Below, piece by piece: positions 4,834 through 62,374 of a stretch of DNA of 64,000 nucleotides. The notes under the pieces are model-generated. The model did no database searches and was not told where the DNA came from. It was given only the letters and a program-made list of their open reading frames with translations. A program made the position numbers and the translations under genes. Source of the DNA: Arthrobacter sp. efr-133-R2A-120 (lineage in GTDB: Bacteria > Actinomycetota > Actinomycetes > Actinomycetales > Micrococcaceae); NCBI RefSeq assembly GCF_030209835.1, contig NZ_JARVRF010000014.1:1-64000 (forward strand), written 5' to 3'. Within the stretch, counting starts at the first letter, position 1. Each line of letters starts with the position of its first letter.

Positions 4834-5673
4834 CTAGATCTGCCCGATCGGGAGTTTCTTTTCCGCCTGGAAATCGTCCTCCACGCGCCCCTGGGCCCAG
4901 TAACCGGAAAGCGATACCTGGGAACGCTCCAGACCACGCTGCTTGAAGAAGATGTCCCGCAGGCCCTTCATGTAGCCGCGTTCACCATGCGCAAACACGT
5001 CGACGCGGCCGGGCAGCCACTCGGCTTCGCCCAGGGCATCGAGCAGGATCGAGCTTGATCCCGCCGGGACTCCGGAGCGAAGGAGCCAGCGCAGCTCCAC
5101 GCCGTCGGGAGCCGCGATATCAAGGATGTCGGCGTCGCTATCGACTTCGAGGAAAGCAAGGCCCTCGGCGCCGGCCGGCAGGGATTCGATTGCGGCGGCA
5201 ATCGCCGGGAGCGCGGCGTCGTCGCCCGCGAAAAGGTACCAGTCGGCGTCGGGCGCCGGGTTGTAGGCGCCGCCGGGACCCGTGAAAACAAGCGCGTCGC
5301 CGGGCTGGGCTGCCAGGGCCCACGGACCTGCAAGGCCCTCGTCGCCGTGGACCACAAAGTCGATGGCCAGTTCCTGGGCAGCTTGGTCCACCCAGCGGAC
5401 AGTGTAAGTGCGGGTGTAAGGCCACTGTTCGCGTGGCATGGTCTCGCGGATCGCCCAAAGATCCAGCGGCAGCTCATAGTCGACGCCGGGCTGCGGGAAC
5501 ACGATCTTCACATACCGGTCCACGAAGTCGTTGTTCGCGTAACCGGCAAAACCGGGTCCACCTGCAATGATGCGCACCATGTGGGGCGAAAGCTGTTCCG
5601 TGCGCAACACAGTCAGGTTCACTTGGGGGCGGGTATTGCGGGACGCGGACGACGTCGCGGGCAAAGATGTCAT
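4834..5673 (-). CDS. Siderophore-interacting FAD/NAD(P)H-dependent ferric reductase (SIP family)
   Basis: A 279-residue SIP/ViuB-type flavoprotein that releases iron from imported ferric siderophores by reduction in the cytoplasm. The N-terminal FAD-binding domain includes the flavin motif RTYTVR (about residues 88-93). A C-terminal SIP domain carries WYLFAGDDAALPAI for the nicotinamide nucleotide and a late FAHGERGYMKGLR segment. An IdeR/DtxR-type box lies immediately before the ATG at 5673, and an ideR gene is elsewhere in the window, so iron repression is expected. No Shine-Dalgarno is visible, so the transcript may have a very short leader. Confidence 0.9.
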   Translation of the reverse strand: MTSLPATSSASRNTRPQVNLTVLRTEQLSPHMVRIIAGGPGFAGYANNDFVDRYVKIVFPQPGVDYELPLDLWAIRETMPREQWPYTRTYTVRWVDQAAQELAIDFVVHGDEGLAGPWALAAQPGDALVFTGPGGAYNPAPDADWYLFAGDDAALPAIAAAIESLPAGAEGLAFLEVDSDADILDIAAPDGVELRWLLRSGVPAGSSSILLDALGEAEWLPGRVDVFAHGERGYMKGLRDIFFKQRGLERSQVSLSGYWAQGRVEDDFQAEKKLPIGQI

Positions 5674-5692
5674 GTAGGCAAGCCTAAGCTAG
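5674..5692 (-). promoter_or_regulatory. IdeR/DtxR-type iron box
   Basis: Read on the minus strand, CTAGCTTAGGCTTGCCTAC matches the 19-bp DtxR/IdeR consensus (TTAGGTTAGGCTAACCTAA) at 14 positions. It abuts the ATG of the siderophore-interacting protein and overlaps the last bases, including the stop, of the upstream ung gene. A promoter -10 (TAGCTT) appears to lie inside the box, so bound IdeR would cover it. Confidence 0.7.
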
Positions 5693-6525
5693 GGCAGCGG
5701 TGGAAGCTCCCAGATGACGGGATCTGCGCCTTGCACACGGAGCAGGGCGTTGGCCCGGCTGAACGGCCGCGAGCCGAAGAAACCCCTCGAGGCGGAGAGC
5801 GGACTGGGGTGCGCGGAGGAGATCACGGGGGCGCCTTCAAGCAGCGGCTGTACGGCCTCAGCGTCCTTGCCCCACAGGATCGCGACGAGCGGACTCTGCT
5901 GCCCGGCAACTGTGCGGCGGCGGGCGACGGCGGTGACCGCCGCCGTCGTGATGGCCTCCCAGCCTTTGCCCCGGTGCGAGCCGGCTGCGCCGGCCGCGAC
6001 GCTGAGCACCCTGTTCAGGAGGAGCACTCCTTGGCCTGTCCAGGCCGAAAGGTCGCCGTGGACCCGCGGTGGCAGCCCGAGATCGGTTTCCATCTCCCGG
6101 TAGATGTTTGCGAGGCTGCGGGGGATGGGCCGGGTTTGCCCGGAAACCGCGAAAGAGAGCCCGACGGCGTGTCCCGGCGTCGGATAGGGGTCCTGGCCCA
6201 GGATCAGCACCTTGACGTCTGCCAGAGGCTGCCGGAAGGCGCGAAGGATGTTGGACGCCGCAGGCAGCACGTGGGTTCCGCGGGTGGCCTCCGCCGCCAC
6301 GAAGGCCAGTGCCGAGCGCAAGTCGTCCTCGACGCCGGAGAGCGCGTGAGCCCAGTCCGGCGCCATGAGATCCTCCAAGGCCATTCCGGGTAGTGCTTCG
6401 AACCCGGCGGAGTGATCCTCGGATTCGAGCTCAAATAACGCTTCTTCGCCTGCCACCCAGCCATTGTCCCTGTCGTGAGGCACTGAGGGAAAGCGCCGGG
6501 ACTCCCGCGGCGGGGCAAATGACAT
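5689..6525 (-). CDS. ung: Uracil-DNA glycosylase, family 1
   Basis: Removes uracil from DNA to start base-excision repair. Both catalytic motifs are present: the water-activating loop GQDPYP with an upstream KVLILG strand, and the HPSPLSA leucine loop near the C-terminus. The ATG at 6525 gives 278 residues. This is longer than the usual 220-230 because of an N-terminal stretch of about 50 residues before the conserved core. A GTG/ATG further upstream (to 6561) would overlap the divergent gene region and is less likely. The gene ends 15 bases before the siderophore-interacting gene on the same strand. Confidence 0.93.
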
Positions 6526-54200: not shown

Positions 54201-54590
54201 CCGGGAAACGCGTGGCCGGGGGAACAAGTAGAGGGCGATCCCGGCCGGGATCGAATAGCCCACGAATGCGGCGTCGGCTATGGAGGGGTAGGGATAGTCA
54301 TGGTCGAGCGTCAGCCCGTAGAAGGTCCAGATGGATTGGCCGGTTGTCCAGACCATCGTTGCCAGGGCCATGACCCACCACGCGGGGGAGCTTTCGTCTT
54401 TGCGCCGTGCAGCCCGGGCACAACTGACTGTGGCGAGCAGCGCGGCCGCCAGGATGGCGAGATCCCCGGCGGACTGCGCCGCGGACGTCCCCTGGTTTGC
54501 TCCCAGGACGATCGCCAGGACAGCGACCGCCGCACCGGCGGCGATGACTGTCCAGGCCAGGTTGGGCTTCGGCAGACTGCGGCCGCTCAT
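51285..54590 (-). CDS. Hybrid histidine kinase: membrane sensor-PAS-HisKA-HATPase-REC-REC-HPt
   Basis: A 1101-residue phosphorelay protein. The N-terminal part has about nine membrane helices (residues 12-315), a possible membrane sensor. It is followed by a coiled segment, a PAS domain (about 340-455), HisKA with MSHEIRTPMNGVIG (about 475) and HATPase boxes NLASNAVKFTP, DTGIGIE and GGTGLGLAI. Two receivers have LDMCMPDMNG and LMDCHMPVMDG. An HPt domain with AHKLKGAAANIGA lies near 1045. It overlaps both neighbours by 4 bp. The relay probably ends on the receiver-GGDEF protein encoded next. Confidence 0.93.
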   Translation of the reverse strand: MSGRSLPKPNLAWTVIAAGAAVAVLAIVLGANQGTSAAQSAGDLAILAAALLATVSCARAARRKDESSPAWWVMALATMVWTTGQSIWTFYGLTLDHDYPYPSIADAAFVGYSIPAGIALYLFPRPRVSRVAFVRGLLDAAVIAAAVLFMSWATVLGSMYKAEGQDLLVHLTGLAYPIADIVMVSIVLMLTMRRSPGERLRWVCLGGGLLILAFTDSTYVKLTSDGVTGLTGTPLATGWIVAFLLIALAPMVPYAPRPRTDGRLYTLALELLPYVPVFGAVMVAPIRTGRPSDPFLQTVGLTVLALAVTRQILMILENINLTRDLESKVAERTAELEGLGAIVNSSADAIVGKTLDGVITSWNPGAERIYGYSAAEAIGRDVSFIIPEDLQDEERDLMAAIRAGGETHSHETTRVRIDGSIVPVSLTMSPIRGTGGIRGVATIAQDITERRIAQAELVTAREAAEEASRLKSEFLATMSHEIRTPMNGVIGLTGLLLDTPLEETQRQYAEGVKGAGEALLTLINDILDFSKLEAGKVDLDPAPFNPRTLVEELAVLLAEAAQAKGLELIAYCRPEVPAMLVGDAGRIRQILLNLASNAVKFTPSGEVVISVKVVEQESANVRVRFEVRDTGIGIEEADHLRLFESFSQADASTTRRYGGTGLGLAISRRLTEVMGGEIGVDSSLGNGSTFWATLPLAVSGAAAAPPSISPDQLTGLRVLVVDDNSTNRLVLQAQLAGWRMNPEAVGDAQKGLDRCREEAAAGRPFDIAVLDMCMPDMNGLELAHKLSTDVALDSTRIIMLTSTMNVDKAELVAAGVQEWLTKPVRSSEFYDRLMRLVAARPLPAPAVSPAIPVTISQPSRGLILVVEDNEVNQLVARSMVAKLGYEADVVADGSEAVAATAATEYAAVLMDCHMPVMDGFEATKAIRARDDGRRRLPVIAMTAGALDEDRERCLAAGMDDYLTKPVDAGNLERVLSRWIPETSKESALDPARLETLRDLGPADGLGLLPAAAQAFRQDIQPSLQALRQALDTGSGDAFRQVAHKLKGAAANIGAARAARMCEELERSSSNGKPVDPALLAGLETELALVDKALDHALSVTS

Positions 54591-56608
54591 GCCGACTCCC
54601 GGGTTGCGACGGCAGGGACGCCGGGGGGAAAGCCGGGAAGAACATCATCGGGGGTATGGAACAGCCAGAGTGAGAGCCTGCGATACGCTTCCGAGTCCCG
54701 GTCACGAACCCGGAGCGAAGCGGTGTGCTCTCCCTTCGAACTTGACCAGATCCGGACGACATCCAGGGGAATCTGTGCGGCTCCCGGGAGTTCCAAAAGG
54801 ACACGGCCGGATTCCGGCAACGCATCGGCCCCGACCCGGACTGCGGCGCCCCCCATGGAGATGTCCAGCAGTTGGCCAGGGGTCCCGGCAACCGTGACGG
54901 GCACCTTGATGGGAACCCGGTGGGCGCTCCTGCGCGAGGTGGCGAATTCAGAGGCTCGGATCCGGAGTGTCCCCAGCACCAGGACAACCCCTGCCAGTAC
55001 CAACCAGACGCCGGCGGCAATGGTGGAGCCCGGGCTCGTCCGCCAAGGCACCCAGCCGAGGACCCCGGCGCTCGCATAGAGAATTATCGCGGCCACGATG
55101 ACGATCAGCACAATGAGGATCCGCGGGGCCCTTCCGCGGAGTCGGAGTTCCGCAGCGCCTTTCGGTGTCACTTGGAACTCCAAGGACTTCCGGGAAACGA
55201 GCCACCACAGGCAAGCCATGCCGACGGGAACCCGGAAAATCCGCAGGGCGAACGCCGTCGGCCAGTGGATCTGGTGGCGCATGAGTCTCTTGGCGCCCCA
55301 CAAACGGACCCAGAACATGGCTGCGAACGCAAGGGTGAACTCCACGGGCCCGGCGGTGGAGGTCTGCGCGCCGGAAACCATGACCGCCATGGGGATGATG
55401 AAGGCAATCAACGTGGCAATGCCCTCCAGCCACCATAAGGTTCCGTTGATGTATTCGTGGAAGTTCCGCCAGGTCATCCAGGTCTTGGCGGCCCAGAGGC
55501 GCTCGTACGTCAGGATCTGCATCGCGCCCATGCCCCAACGCCGGCGCTGCAGCAGGTATTGATCGGCTGTCGCCGGGGCCAGGCCCACTGCCAGGGTCTG
55601 GTGGTGGTAGACGGTCTTCCACCCGAGCCGGATGAGTTTGAGGGTCGTATGCATGTCCTCGGTGATGGTCTCGGTGGCAACACCACCTACTTCGCGAAGC
55701 GCTTTGACCCGGAGCAGGGAGGTCGATCCGCACCAGAACGGGCCTGCGCCAGGAACGTTGCGCGACGGCATGAGGACGTTGAAGAACAACCCCTGCTCCC
55801 CGGAGATTCCGTCGTCGTCGAAGGCTCCGGAGTTGTAGAACGCTTGCGGCCCCTGGATGAGGGCGACTTCCTCGTCGGCGAACCACCCCAGGGTGGCCGT
55901 CAGGAACGTCGGCAGCGGTACGTGGTCGCAGTCCAGCACGGCAATGATGCCTATTGCATCCTTCCCGGCCGCTTCCTCCGCGGCCATCAGCTCCAGTGCG
56001 TGGTTCATGTTGCCCGCCTTGGCATGGTCATGCTCCGCGCGGGTGACAACCCTCGCGCCGAAAGCCGCACACATCTCGGCAACCCACGGGCGGTCCCCGT
56101 CATCCAGCACCCATGTCTCGTGGCTCGGCTGAAGCGCGCAGGCCGCGGCGATGGTGGGCGCAAGGACTTCAACAGGTTCGTTGTACGTAGGGATCAGCAC
56201 TGCGACCCTCATGCCATTGGGAGGTTCGGCAACCGGCTCCGGCGCATAACAGTCGATGTTCCACAGCGTGATGGACTTCAGGACCAGGCCTATCAGCGGA
56301 AGGGCCTCAAACGTCACCAGCGTCCACGCGACGACGAGATCCCCGCCCCCAAGAGGCATGGTAAATGCGATCCGCCACGTCAAATAGACGACCAACGCCG
56401 CGATCGCAGCTATCCCACCGGTCCTGGCCATTCTGCGGGAACGCGGAGCCTCGGGAGCGGGAGAACCCAGTTGTGCCGCCCAGCCGGCCATTCCCGCGGT
56501 CGAGTACGCCTTGACCTCGGCAGGAGTGTCACGGAACTGTGTCCGTGCTCCGTCGGTTACTGCCCCGACGTCTCCCCAGGCGCGTCGGCGCTGTTCAAGA
56601 GATTGCAT
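54587..56608 (-). CDS. Cellulose-synthase-like GT2 with C-terminal PilZ domain
   Basis: A 673-residue membrane glycosyltransferase making a beta-linked polysaccharide. Two helices come first (about residues 65-110), then the GT2 core with WVLDDGDRP, VLDCDHVPLP (DxD), ITEDMHT (TED) and QRRRW. Five or more helices follow. The C-terminal PilZ domain (about 555-660) has both c-di-GMP motifs, RRSAHR (RxxxR type) and DISMGG (D/NxSxxG). This is the BcsA layout, but no bcsB, bcsZ or bcsC is present. The product may not be cellulose. It is first in an operon with a hybrid kinase and a diguanylate cyclase. Confidence 0.92.
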   Translation of the reverse strand: MQSLEQRRRAWGDVGAVTDGARTQFRDTPAEVKAYSTAGMAGWAAQLGSPAPEAPRSRRMARTGGIAAIAALVVYLTWRIAFTMPLGGGDLVVAWTLVTFEALPLIGLVLKSITLWNIDCYAPEPVAEPPNGMRVAVLIPTYNEPVEVLAPTIAAACALQPSHETWVLDDGDRPWVAEMCAAFGARVVTRAEHDHAKAGNMNHALELMAAEEAAGKDAIGIIAVLDCDHVPLPTFLTATLGWFADEEVALIQGPQAFYNSGAFDDDGISGEQGLFFNVLMPSRNVPGAGPFWCGSTSLLRVKALREVGGVATETITEDMHTTLKLIRLGWKTVYHHQTLAVGLAPATADQYLLQRRRWGMGAMQILTYERLWAAKTWMTWRNFHEYINGTLWWLEGIATLIAFIIPMAVMVSGAQTSTAGPVEFTLAFAAMFWVRLWGAKRLMRHQIHWPTAFALRIFRVPVGMACLWWLVSRKSLEFQVTPKGAAELRLRGRAPRILIVLIVIVAAIILYASAGVLGWVPWRTSPGSTIAAGVWLVLAGVVLVLGTLRIRASEFATSRRSAHRVPIKVPVTVAGTPGQLLDISMGGAAVRVGADALPESGRVLLELPGAAQIPLDVVRIWSSSKGEHTASLRVRDRDSEAYRRLSLWLFHTPDDVLPGFPPGVPAVATRESA

Positions 56609-58559: not shown

Positions 58560-58834
58560 GTTTTCGCGGGTAGCCTCGTGTCAGCGGGTGGGTAGTCTTT
58601 GCATTATCATGAGTGCACTCACCGGAATGGCGCCGGACTGAGGGTTCCATGCAGTTTGGCGCAGACTAGATGACCGACACGGCAGAACATAGGACCCATG
58701 ACTCATCAGCTTGTTCTGCGTCGTCCGGGACACGCAGGCGATACATCCCCCATAAAGGCAGCATCCCACCCCTCGGGTTGTGGCCTTCGGGACCTTCGCG
58801 GGCCGATCGCCCGACGGCGGCAGGCGACCCAGCG
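58560..58834. promoter_or_regulatory. Promoter region of the STAS/GGDEF-EAL operon
   Basis: A 275-bp gap. TTTGCATTAT at about 58599-58608 resembles an extended -10. Directly after it is the perfect 12-bp palindrome TGAGTGCACTCA (58610-58621), a candidate operator. In-frame codons exist from 58670 but have no ribosome-binding site or conserved sequence. Confidence 0.4.
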
Positions 58835-59284
58835 ATGAGCTCCCAGACACTGCCCGCCCGGGATTCCCGGATTCCCGATGATGCCTTGGATGCTTCGTCT
58901 GGAGACGCGATGGCCCCGGCCGACCAGATCACCGTTGACTTGGCGGAGGACGGGATTGTCGAGGTCACCCTGCCGCCGAACAGCGTAGTCCGCTCGCCGG
59001 AAGCCCGGGCGGCCGCGGCGGCCGTTCGTGTGTTTGCAGACGGGCGCAGGCTCCCGCTTCTGCTCAGGGTGACCGGAGTGCTGTCTGTCACCGACGACGC
59101 TCGCCTGGCCTACTCGAATTCCGTGGTCGTTTCAGCATGTGCCCTCTTGGGGGAGAGCCCGGTGGACCGCGTGATCGCGCATTTTCTCCTGCGTGCGAAG
59201 CCAGGCTCGCTTCCCGGGCAGTTCTTCACCTCAGAAGCAGAAGCCCGTGACTGGTTGAGAGAGCACCACCGTGAATCAGCGTGA
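58835..59284 (+). CDS. STAS/SEC14-like domain protein
   Basis: A 149-residue soluble protein. After a variable N-terminus, the conserved part runs ITVDLAEDGIVEVTLPP, then RRLPLLLRVTGVLSVTDDAR, SACALLGESPVDRVIAHFLL and FFTSEAEARDWL. This is a small alpha/beta fold of the STAS/SEC14-like type common in actinobacterial GGDEF/EAL neighbourhoods. The start is uncertain: ATG 58835, or ATG 58909 behind GGAG. It overlaps the GGDEF-EAL gene by 14 bp, so it may regulate or scaffold that enzyme. Confidence 0.75.
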   Translation: MSSQTLPARDSRIPDDALDASSGDAMAPADQITVDLAEDGIVEVTLPPNSVVRSPEARAAAAAVRVFADGRRLPLLLRVTGVLSVTDDARLAYSNSVVVSACALLGESPVDRVIAHFLLRAKPGSLPGQFFTSEAEARDWLREHHRESA

Positions 59285-60794
59285 GCCCCAGGACCCGCGA
59301 CTCCTTGCCCTTGTTGAAGGGGTAGTTCGGATTGCTGATGGCGACCTCAGCACAAGGATCCCGGTGTCCGGCCCGCGGGACGAAGTGGCTGCTGTGATTA
59401 CCGGGATCAACCTCATGGCGGACGATCTTCAAGCCATCTACCAGGAGCTCGAGGAACGGGTCGAAAGCCGAACTGCCATGCTTCGCGAGGCCCAGATCGA
59501 ACTCGAAAGGATGGCGCTCACTGATCCGCTGACCCAGTTGGCCAACCGCACGGCGCTCGAAAGGGCGCTGAACCATGAACTCGTCGAATCCGAGCGGGGA
59601 GAGCTCCCACCTGCGTTGCTCGTTTTGGACTTGAACTCATTCAAGGGGATCAACGACACCTTGGGGCACGGCGCCGGGGACACCGTCTTGAAAGTCACTG
59701 CGAGGCGCCTGCTCGCCGCGGTCCGTGATACGGACATGGTGGCCAGGCTCGGCGGGGACGAATTTGCCGTCATGCTGCCCAAATCCAATGCGGCGCATGC
59801 GCGTGGCGTTGCCAAGCGGATCCTTCGGGCCGTGGGTGAGAGCATCGACATCGGCGAAGTCCGGATCATCTGTGGAACAAGCATCGGGCTCCGTGTCGCC
59901 GAGCCAGGGCAGTCCGTGGACGACCTCGTGATGGAAGCCGACACGGCCATGTATGCGGCAAAGGCCGAGCAGGGGAGCAGCGTCAGGGTTTTCGAGCCGG
60001 CTTTGTTGTACGCGCGCAGGCTCCAGGGACTCATGATCTCGGAGCTGCGTGAAGCCATCCGGACAGATCAGCTGGTCCTCCATTTCCAGCCTGTTGTCGA
60101 GTTGGCCTCGGGGCGGATTGAAGGCGCTGAAGCGCTGGTGCGGTGGAACCACCCCGACAGGGGATTGTTGATGCCGGATGCATTCATCCCGCTGGCCGAG
60201 GAAACCGGCATCATCATCGATCTCGGCTATTGGGTTCTACGGCGTGCGATGCAGCAATTGCGCGAGTGGCAGGACGGCCCGGGCATGGACGAAGACTTCA
60301 GCATGCGGGTCAATATTTCGACGACCGAATTGCAAAGCCTGGAATTGATCGAGCATGTGCGGGAAGTGCTCTCCGAAACCGGAGTGGAGGCATCCAAGCT
60401 GGTCATCGAGCTCACGGAGTCAATGGCAGTGAACGGCAGCGACATCGACAAATACTCCCTGACCGGCCTCAGGCGTCTGGGTATCCGCTTGGAAATCGAC
60501 GATTTCGGCACCGGATATTCGTCTATCAGCTACCTGCGCAGCCTTCCCGTCAACGTGGTCAAGATTGACCGCTCCCTCATCCAAGGCCTGGGCACGGACG
60601 AGAAGGAACGGAACTTTGTGGCGGCGGTTCTCCAGCTCATTCATGCGTGCGGAATGCAAGCCGTTGCCGAGGGCATCGAAACGGCAGAGCAGGCGGCCGA
60701 GCTTGCCCGCCTGGGCTGCGCCAGTGGCCAGGGGTATTACTTTGGCCGGCCGATGGCAGCCGAAAAATTCGCGGAACTGTTCCGGGGCACCTGA
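59271..60794 (+). CDS. GGDEF-EAL protein (c-di-GMP turnover)
   Basis: A 507-residue cytoplasmic protein with no membrane helix. It has an N-terminal HAMP-like helix pair (about residues 15-70), a GGDEF domain with intact GGDEF (ARLGGDEFAVML, about 160) and an EAL domain with EAL (GAEALVRWNHP, about 285), DDFGTGYSS and a late AEGIETAEQ. Both catalytic motifs are intact, so it could make or break c-di-GMP; which activity dominates is unknown. The GTG start at 59271 lies inside the STAS-like gene's end. A bidirectional terminator follows. Confidence 0.95.
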   Translation: MNQREPQDPRLLALVEGVVRIADGDLSTRIPVSGPRDEVAAVITGINLMADDLQAIYQELEERVESRTAMLREAQIELERMALTDPLTQLANRTALERALNHELVESERGELPPALLVLDLNSFKGINDTLGHGAGDTVLKVTARRLLAAVRDTDMVARLGGDEFAVMLPKSNAAHARGVAKRILRAVGESIDIGEVRIICGTSIGLRVAEPGQSVDDLVMEADTAMYAAKAEQGSSVRVFEPALLYARRLQGLMISELREAIRTDQLVLHFQPVVELASGRIEGAEALVRWNHPDRGLLMPDAFIPLAEETGIIIDLGYWVLRRAMQQLREWQDGPGMDEDFSMRVNISTTELQSLELIEHVREVLSETGVEASKLVIELTESMAVNGSDIDKYSLTGLRRLGIRLEIDDFGTGYSSISYLRSLPVNVVKIDRSLIQGLGTDEKERNFVAAVLQLIHACGMQAVAEGIETAEQAAELARLGCASGQGYYFGRPMAAEKFAELFRGT

Positions 60795-60830
60795 GCCCGC
60801 GTCCTCCTGGCGGCGGAAAGGCAGCAACAG

Positions 60831-60861
60831 AAAGGCACCGGACCTCAGGTCCGGTGCCTTT
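60831..60861. terminator. Bidirectional terminator
   Basis: AAAGGCACCGGACC and GGTCCGGTGCCTTT form a perfect 14-bp stem with a 3-base loop, A-run on the left and T-run on the right. It serves both the GGDEF-EAL gene (plus) and the ATGWWPN-repeat gene (minus). Confidence 0.95.
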
Positions 60862-60870
60862 CAGGTGTAG

Positions 60871-61164
60871 CTAGTTGGAGGGGGTGGAGTTGGTGGTGGC
60901 GTTGGGCCACCAACCGGTGGCTTCAGGGGAACCCTGGGTGGTGGCGTTGGGCCACCAGCCAGTGGCCTCTGCCGAGTTCTGGGCGAAGTTCGGCCACCAG
61001 CCAGTGGCTTCTGCCGAGTTCTGCGCGAAGTTCGGCCACCAGCCAGTGGCTATGGACGAATCCTGTGAGGGGCTCTGGCTGCTGGCGGACACCGCTGCCG
61101 AGCCGGTAATTCCGGCGAGCAAGATTGCTGCTGCCGCGAGGAGGGCAGCGAGAGTTCTTTTCAT
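60871..61164 (-). CDS. Secreted small protein with four ATGWWPN repeats
   Basis: A 97-residue protein. A signal peptide (about residues 1-27: MKRTLAALLAAAAILLAG, then a likely cut after AVSA) is followed only by a repeat region. ATGWWPN occurs four times, separated by FAQNSAE twice and then by ATTQGSPE, with an ATTNSTPSN ending. There are no cysteines and no enzymatic domain. It has a near-consensus promoter and AGGAG before the ATG, so strong expression is likely. I do not recognise the family. A multi-copy peptide precursor or a repetitive envelope/adhesive protein are both possible. Confidence 0.85.
   Translation of the reverse strand: MKRTLAALLAAAAILLAGITGSAAVSASSQSPSQDSSIATGWWPNFAQNSAEATGWWPNFAQNSAEATGWWPNATTQGSPEATGWWPNATTNSTPSN
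60901..61050 (-). repeat. DNA repeat array encoding ATGWWPN
   Basis: Four 21-bp units at 60901-60921, 60946-60966, 60988-61008 and 61030-61050, at spacings of 45, 42 and 42 bp. The DNA is nearly identical between the two N-terminal units including the linker, pointing to recent duplication. Confidence 0.93.
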
Positions 61165-61224
61165 GCGAAAGCTCCTGATGGTATGTGACTGATGCGACTG
61201 GAGTGAACGAAGTGAAGCACGCTC

Positions 61225-61253
61225 ATTATAAGAGTAACGACACGCCGTGTCAT
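61225..61253 (-). promoter_or_regulatory. Near-consensus promoter of the ATGWWPN-repeat gene
   Basis: On the minus strand ATGACA (-35, 5 of 6) and TATAAT (-10, perfect) are spaced by 17 bp, about 60 bases before the start codon. It is the best sigma-70-type promoter noticed in the window. Confidence 0.85.
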
Positions 61254-61313
61254 CAGTGCTTTGTCCACATCTCCCAAAATCGTGCTAATTACCCGGCCGC
61301 ACCCTTGACGCAG

Positions 61314-61336: not shown

Positions 61337-62374
61337 ATGGGAGAAAAGAAGGTTGCGCCGTCGTACGCCGCCGCGGAACTGCAGGCGAGAGGACACCGGG
61401 CCAGCCACGACTTCGCCAAGGCTGCCGATGGTGCGCGCTCCGCTGCTGATATTGCCCTTGATGAGGGTGATTCCGCCGGATGGTGGAACATGACTTTCCT
61501 TCAAGCAGAGAATCTTCTCGACGCAGGTGATTTCGCTGCGAGCACTGCGCTGGCGAGGTCGCTTTCCGAGGCACCGTCGGCTGTGGCTTCACCCCAACAC
61601 CGGGCCCGGGCACTCATATTGATGGCGAACTCCCTGCGGGGTGAAGGGCTCCTGGAGATGGCCACCTCGGCTGCGGCGTCGGCCGTCGGCTTGGTCGATG
61701 ATGACGCGGACATGGAAATCGACGTCCACGCACGGCAGGCACTGATAGCGGCGTTTGGCGAATCCGGAAAACTTGGGGAGGCCTGGGAGGAATGCCTGTC
61801 CCTCTCGGAGAGGATCTCCGATGAAATGGATGACCAGTTGGCCGGAAAGGCGTACTGGGTCATCGGCAATGTGGCCTTCCTCTGTGACAAAGTCGATGAA
61901 GGGCTCCACTACCATGAGCTTGCAGCGGAAACCTTTTCCCCTTCGCGGAACCTTGATGTCTGGGCCAAGTTCAACAAGGCGTCGGCGGCGATGAGGCTGG
62001 CGGCGGAAGTGGCAGATGCGGCCACCCTGCGGTGCATTGAACGGGCCGAACTTGCCACGGACGTCGTCGGGGGCAGCGAAGAGGAAATTCTCCTGCTTCG
62101 GCTCAACCGCGCGCATTGGAACTATCTGGCGGGAGACGCGGGGGCGGCGCTTGAGCTGCTGGACGAAATCAGGGGCCGCGCTGACCAACTGCCCGCGCAG
62201 ATGGCGGGCGAGGTCTACCTCTTGATGGCGCGGGCCCAAGCCAGCACCGGGAACAAACAGGCAGCGAAAGAAAGTCTGGTCGAAGCGGCCGACCGCTTCG
62301 ACAAAGCCGGCGCCCACCAGCGTGCACTCCAAGCCCGGGAGATGCTCGAGCCGGGGAGCGATTCGGAAGCCTGA
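61337..62374 (+). CDS. TPR-repeat protein of unknown function
   Basis: A 345-residue all-helical protein whose pattern of paired helices (for example AGDFAASTALARSLSEAP and QMAGEVYLLMARAQASTG) fits tetratricopeptide repeats along most of its length. No DNA-binding or catalytic domain is seen, unlike TPR regulators with an HTH. It is probably a protein-interaction scaffold. The ATG at 61337 follows GGAG. It opens a plus-strand group with the SWIM-domain gene 104 bp downstream. Confidence 0.75.
   Translation: MGEKKVAPSYAAAELQARGHRASHDFAKAADGARSAADIALDEGDSAGWWNMTFLQAENLLDAGDFAASTALARSLSEAPSAVASPQHRARALILMANSLRGEGLLEMATSAAASAVGLVDDDADMEIDVHARQALIAAFGESGKLGEAWEECLSLSERISDEMDDQLAGKAYWVIGNVAFLCDKVDEGLHYHELAAETFSPSRNLDVWAKFNKASAAMRLAAEVADAATLRCIERAELATDVVGGSEEEILLLRLNRAHWNYLAGDAGAALELLDEIRGRADQLPAQMAGEVYLLMARAQASTGNKQAAKESLVEAADRFDKAGAHQRALQAREMLEPGSDSEA

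Follow-up and report, generated by a model that had tools for sequence, protein, structure and literature searches.

A repeated WWPN peptide precursor divergent from a TPR receptor gene: a probable RRNPP-like pheromone pair in Arthrobacter and other Micrococcaceae

The closest described counterparts of the locus presented here, in terms of layout, are the RRNPP quorum sensing systems. Their signature, as given in a passage of PMC10075063, consists of a propeptide of 10-100 aa that is secreted via Sec and matured by peptidases, and of a TPR receptor of 250-500 aa, the two genes being adjacent. RRNPPA propeptides can contain repeated identical cores, up to six copies according to a section of PMC9765709, and the proteolysis of such tandem-core propeptides by extracellular proteases was studied in 2024 in Bacillota (excerpt of PMC11343458). 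In the sections concerned, the RRNPP surveys deal with Firmicutes (PMC9765709) and with Firmicutes and viruses (PMC10075063). Actinobacterial quorum sensing is described as small-molecule based in a passage of PMC10075063, and in terms of gamma-butyrolactones and cyclic or modified peptides in a passage of PMC4748050. Among the matches listed in a library of published open-access papers, there was no report of WWPN-type peptides or of an actinobacterial RRNPP system. Here we describe a locus that probably encodes a pheromone peptide together with its receptor; such pairs would form an undescribed class in Micrococcaceae that resembles RRNPP.

The window, i.e. the whole stretch of 64,000 nucleotides that was analysed, comes from Arthrobacter sp. 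efr-133-R2A-120. The original prediction drew attention to an open reading frame with a signal peptide and four ATGWWPN repeats, and this description is accurate: positions 60871-61164 of the minus strand translate into 97 aa with a signal-peptide-like start and four exact copies of the core at residues 39-45, 53-59, 67-73 and 82-88 (61030-61050, 60988-61008, 60946-60966 and 60901-60921, respectively, all on the minus strand). The N-terminus is basic and then hydrophobic, and is predicted from sequence and hydropathy to be Sec-like; the spacers between the ATGWWPN units are rich in Ser, Thr, Ala, Gln and Asn. We call it a peptide precursor gene on the basis of these features and of the homologues and selection described below. 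As had been stated, no known family is recognised: neither Pfam nor NCBIfam provides a match at E <= 1. The expression signals originally described are present as well. A good ribosome-binding site, AGGAG, is found at 61172-61176 (minus strand), 7 nt before the ATG, and the promoter ATGACA-17-TATAAT (61225-61253, minus strand; 11 of 12 consensus bases) is indeed the best by consensus in the window: no other site of the 64 kb, whichever strand is read, reaches 10 of 12 with a minimum of 4 matching bases in each hexamer and a spacer of 16-18. The claim that the gene has its own terminator may hold only in part: there is a hairpin of 15 bp at 60830-60862, not assigned to a strand (folding: -33.9 kcal/mol, z -6.9), but it may serve two genes because it is located between the convergent precursor and GGDEF-EAL genes. 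The T-run of this hairpin is short, and it is absent from the list of the consensus terminator scan.

The key element of the locus had been overlooked. At a distance of 172 bp from the precursor (between 61164 and 61337), and divergent from it, lies a TPR receptor-type gene (61337-62374, plus strand) of the kind that stands beside nearly every precursor. It encodes a protein of 345 aa from the ATG, or 353 aa from a GTG at 61313, in which the Pfam scan found no HTH, and we propose that this HTH-less TPR protein is a cytosolic peptide receptor. Scanning GTDB species genomes with the receptor alignment gave 194 relatives, the best 80 of which were taken as loci (numbered with L; genomes are numbered with G) and belong to Arthrobacter, Pseudarthrobacter, Paenarthrobacter and Sinomonas. 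They contain 83 receptors, 42 in loci with an HTH and 41 in loci without one, where the presence of an HTH was judged by similarity to the HTH of the paralogue described below and a diverged HTH could escape. A divergent signal-peptide ORF with 1-6 WP cores adjoins 82 of the 83 receptors (42/42 of the HTH type and 40/41 of the HTH-less type). In a strict scan 112 of 118 receptor rows (the receptors of the 80 loci, the loci of an order and a phylum sample, and a few duplicates) were positive for a precursor, as compared to a background of 0.55% of 12000 random 1160-bp stretches of the 80 loci and 0/6000 in the remaining window. Some misses have an explanation (the L123 precursor fails the filter, L132 lies at the locus edge and L037 carries an insertion), and for three receptors (the first one of L060, L126 and L139) the scan beside the receptor found no precursor. 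The pairing of precursor and receptor is well supported. Because it recurs in many related soil bacteria, the precursor is probably the signal half of a cell-to-cell system. The receptor occurs in 37 of 59 genomes, namely in all 37 that belong to the same genus, and 18 of these have two receptors. The insertion in L037 (3378-5001) parts the precursor, whose frame is open, from the receptor by more than 1 kb, i.e. beyond the 1.1-kb range of the scan, which had taken an incorrect ORF instead, and this row was set by hand in the precursor counts, the tree and the core-change test. Tandem receptor genes are seen in L060, L063, L065 and L119; in the latter three both receptors of the tandem are accompanied by a precursor, and the two precursors differ in their cores (DDWPH; GNWPD/G).

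A second pair is present in the same genome. At positions 7768-9455 of L028 (G000:C7:96000-112000) a precursor with four GNWPDP units, which first surfaced in G000:C7 as a weak match to the reported precursor, is divergent from a gene for an XRE-HTH-TPR regulator. This regulator (428 aa) and the protein of 61337-62374 are paralogues with 39% identity, and they are the only two matches to the receptor family in this genome at E <= 0.01. The core type is associated with the receptor clade: on the receptor tree the two residues preceding WP change 18 times, while 200 shuffles required 42 changes on average and never fewer than 35, and some of this association is accounted for by shared descent alone. 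The tree includes 79 of the 118 rows, 76 of them with a core (it omits duplicates, receptors that are short, and many of the HTH-type rows that hardly differ from one another), and a long-branch warning applies to L139, L129, L128, L126, L127 and others. The stronger point comes from genomes in which two receptors have precursors (the present genome, L063, L065 and G381): there the core always matches the clade of the receptor beside it, for instance DDWPH with one receptor and GNWPD or GNWPG with the other.

Precursor matches at E <= 0.01 were found in 19 of 59 genomes, several of them weak. Among them are complete homologues, with five cores in G022 and G012 and four in G010 and G031, and short ones with a single core (G032, G019, G018). 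A check proposed at the outset, i.e. whether WWPN-repeat homologues exist and vary in repeat number, came out positive, with 1 to 6 cores; at least two cores are present in 61 of 82 precursors and one in 21, and lengths across the 80 loci range from 44 to 121 aa, the shortest having 44-50 aa and that of L034 121 aa. The frame itself is under selection. For the GWWPN codons (57 units of 13 homologous genes, the units within one gene not being independent of each other) pS is 0.31 and pN is 0.000, the latter partly by construction since the units were chosen by a motif fixing GWWP; a calculation restricted to a single unit from each gene leads to the same result (pN 0, pS 0.29 and 0.38). Gly and Pro account for the synonymous signal, since Trp has no synonymous sites and Asn is always AAC. 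The informative point is that the full translations of all 13 genes contain no degenerate units. In the 13 close homologues of the reported gene pN/pS is 0.14 for the signal peptide and 0.46 and 0.62 for the spacers of 8 and 7 residues, respectively. The two receptor types differ in their cores: in the HTH type 108/108 cores read WPDP after G, and in the HTH-less type W precedes WP in 84/98 cores and N or D follows it in 88/98. That WP never varies is in part a consequence of the precursor scan, which required it; the other core positions were free. The core is the exact C-terminus of 38/42 HTH-type precursors versus 7/40 HTH-less ones, 33/40 of the latter having residues after the last core. 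With conserved cores, variable copy number and drifting spacers, the interpretation as a multi-copy secreted peptide precursor is well supported.

Both types of loci carry palindromic elements that may act as operators. In the window the palindrome TGACACGGCGTGTC (61239-61252, minus strand) overlaps the -35 box and the spacer of the precursor promoter, and we regard it as a candidate operator that is conserved in close homologues. Among the matches listed, close HTH-less loci have TGACAC(G/C)GCGTGTC over the precursor -35 box, looser copies are present in some other HTH-less loci with none seen in L056 and L058, and TTGACA...TGTCAA is common between the two genes of HTH loci. Genome-wide searches with the window palindrome (one exact and one 1-mismatch copy; 1 match for the reversed control), with the element of the XRE locus (found once; control 0) and with a joint operator pattern (sole match the XRE locus with 3 mismatches; control also 1) revealed no regulon. 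Autoregulation of the precursor-receptor pairs via these elements is plausible.

AlphaFold2, run on 46 sequences, predicts the receptor to be a TPR superhelix in which a helix pair recurs about every 40 residues (pLDDT 92.7, pTM 0.85). Its fold matches include LGN (Z 27.6), NprR (20.3), RapI (19.8), RapH (19.1) and many other TPR proteins, and because Rap and NprR are equalled or surpassed in this comparison by LGN and many others, the fold says TPR and no more. The Pfam TPR match of the window receptor itself is below the curated cut-off, that of the paralogue is above a Pfam TPR cut-off. Conservation is highest in the inner helices of TPR5 (mean entropy 0.65 bits) and TPR6 (0.53 bits), and W174, G177, N178, W209, F212, N213, S216 and R220 are invariant in 46 rows; we speculate that the peptide site may lie at these helices. 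When the two receptor alignments were used as profiles against the PDB, pentatricopeptide, TPR and designed-repeat proteins were found, with RRNPP chains absent at E <= 1. For the XRE-TPR protein the model is weak (pLDDT 77, the HTH mostly below 50), and a fold search with it gave TPR proteins, with no RRNPP receptor among the best 50 matches listed.

Beyond the genus, the receptor was found at E <= 1e-30 in 21 of the 347 genomes sampled from the order, i.e. 20 in Micrococcaceae and G115, and at E <= 1e-15 in 3 of 396 genomes of the phylum sample, two of the same genus and G069. With so few matches the receptor family is not general to actinobacteria. In G115, a member of another family, an HTH-TPR protein is adjoined by a precursor with three TVGGSWPT units (L129, 2740-2916), which suggests that the class extends past Micrococcaceae with altered cores; in G069 no precursor was found beside the receptor. 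As for mobile elements, there was one 58-aa HTH match in phages and none in plasmids or viral contigs.

The convergent neighbours of the precursor point to a possible output. The genes for a SpoIIAA-like DUF7793 protein (58670-59284, plus strand), associated with HTH-less receptors by locus comparison, and for a HAMP-GGDEF-EAL protein (59271-60794, plus strand), a c-di-GMP enzyme according to Pfam and motifs and our proposed output, precede it in the window. The original prediction placed the precursor beside a c-di-GMP enzyme operon; across the 80 loci this linkage turned out to be conserved, but confined to the HTH-less receptor type. Of the 38 HTH-less loci 35 contain a GGDEF-EAL gene, in which both the GGDEF and the EAL motif are present (35/35), and these 38 loci contain zero matches to the HTH of the paralogue at E <= 1e-4; none of the 42 HTH-type loci has a GGDEF-EAL match above 200 bits. 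No complete GGDEF-EAL was seen within L062, L063 and L065, and partial pieces are found at the edge of L062 and L065. In L056, L058, L060 and L088 the GGDEF-EAL gene is downstream, on the other side of the receptor, and therefore the linkage has outlived rearrangement. In all of the two-receptor genomes (18/18) one of the receptors has a DUF7793 gene less than 2.5 kb away. From this linkage we infer that the HTH-less branch probably controls c-di-GMP, and linkage by itself does not prove that the GGDEF-EAL protein is the target. The pair might also be a signalling pair in which the HTH-less receptor targets something else, for example by sequestering another regulator, the linkage then reflecting shared regulation. 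This agrees with the three HTH-less loci that have no full GGDEF-EAL nearby and with the fact that contact between receptor and enzyme is deduced from linkage, but the persistence of linkage across gene orders and the proximity of DUF7793 in all 18 two-receptor genomes speak against it, and we consider it unlikely, though a serious alternative.

A few further observations concern this neighbourhood. A cellulose-synthase-like glycosyltransferase with a PilZ domain is encoded at 54587-56608 (minus strand), 2 kb before the DUF7793 gene, and could be a c-di-GMP effector; 6 of the 80 loci include a piece of it at their margin. Two more DUF7793 genes are present in the same genome (G000:C35:19835-20149 and G000:C14:25154-25468), and DUF7793 matches reach 8 in other genomes of the genus. 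In L059 (Arthrobacter sp. Hiyo8, 5001-6085) the receptor and GGDEF-EAL matches appear split, possibly by sequencing frameshifts, and the precursor is open with three cores.

We think it likely that the locus encodes an RRNPP-like pheromone pair, i.e. a multi-copy precursor and a divergent cytosolic TPR receptor that acts on the DUF7793/GGDEF-EAL module. The precursor would be exported by Sec, and, by analogy, proteases would free peptides that end in GWWPN or close to it. These would be taken up again by an oligopeptide permease and would bind on the concave side of the receptor, most likely where the conserved inner helices of TPR5 and TPR6 lie. The genome encodes 16 SBP_bac_5 oligopeptide-binding proteins, with which such an import appears possible. 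The HTH-less receptor would then act in a Rap-like manner, by protein contact, on the linked module, and the XRE-HTH-TPR paralogue would follow the same scheme with GNWPDP peptides but act on DNA. A broader proposal is that the pairs form a genus-wide, undescribed class of pheromone systems with intracellular receptors in Actinomycetota, that this class evolved separately from the RRNPP family of Firmicutes, that duplicated pairs diversified in specificity, and that in the HTH-less branch a WWPN pheromone is coupled straight to a c-di-GMP enzyme, with c-di-GMP then following cell density and no transcription factor in between; this we put forward tentatively, as something that falls a little short of an even chance.

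Two-gene adjacency, core conservation and the core-receptor association would be explained equally well if the TPR protein bound the core of unexported precursor inside the cell and monitored secretion capacity or precursor level, with no release, re-import or cell-cell signalling. However, multiple copies and exact C-terminal cores look like the release of short peptides, and Firmicutes systems of the same layout re-import theirs (PMC4873490), which makes such a monitor rather improbable. Short, secreted, repeated Trp-Pro peptides could also be antimicrobial or modified (bacteriocin or RiPP-like), with the TPR protein as a regulator or immunity factor, but among the ORFs in 10 kb around the gene none was recognised on inspection as coding for a modification enzyme, a dedicated exporter or an immunity protein, the neighbours that recur are GGDEF-EAL and DUF7793 genes, and searches of NCBIfam and Pfam gave no precursor family, so that we give little credence to this explanation. 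Finally, the repeats and the nearby c-di-GMP enzyme might recall a repetitive surface, adhesive or matrix protein under c-di-GMP control, as the original prediction also allowed, but with a single core in 21/82 homologues, the shortest of 44-50 aa, no anchor motif noticed and every precursor adjoining a TPR protein of the matching clade, this is hardly credible.

If the pheromone pair is real, a linear-peptide pheromone with a cytosolic TPR receptor would open peptide quorum sensing in abundant soil bacteria, dozens of receptor-pheromone pairs would be ready for specificity studies, and a direct path from pheromone to c-di-GMP could be tested.

It remains to compare the general features of the pair with the known systems. 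Like the tandem-core propeptides in the excerpt of PMC11343458, the Arthrobacter precursors contain several cores per predicted exported protein, the processing being our proposal. When the RRNPP signature is applied to the locus, the precursor (97 aa) is within the length range of propeptides, some homologues exceed it (121 aa in L034), and the receptor (345/353 aa) and its paralogue (428 aa) are within the range of receptors; the TPRs are those of the predicted superhelix, the genes are adjacent (divergent, 172 bp apart) and secretion is predicted. As in the RRNPP/RRNPPA systems (Rap-Phr, NprR-NprX, PlcR-PapR, AimR-AimP), a small gene for a propeptide, here predicted to be of the Sec type, adjoins a TPR receptor gene, receptors occur with and without an HTH (the latter as in Rap), and propeptides have repeated cores. 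We call the pair RRNPP-like in the way it would work, and make no claim of common descent because the sequence searches returned no RRNPP protein. Rap proteins act on a phosphorelay. The window receptor shares with them the TPR architecture, the absence of a DNA-binding domain and the proposed action by protein contact, while its linked partner is a c-di-GMP enzyme and no sequence relation to Rap was detected. The best structural match, the TPR domain of LGN/Pins (Z 27.6), was solved with bound peptides or partner proteins, but this is a eukaryotic cell-polarity protein whose likeness to the window receptor is one of fold only. The differences from RRNPP are several. Firstly, the Arthrobacter system belongs to Actinomycetota, has WP cores and shows no sequence match to an RRNPP structure. 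Secondly, the helix pairs of its receptor recur about every 40 residues, and multi-core precursors are the majority (61/82). Thirdly, its HTH-less branch is linked to a GGDEF-EAL gene.
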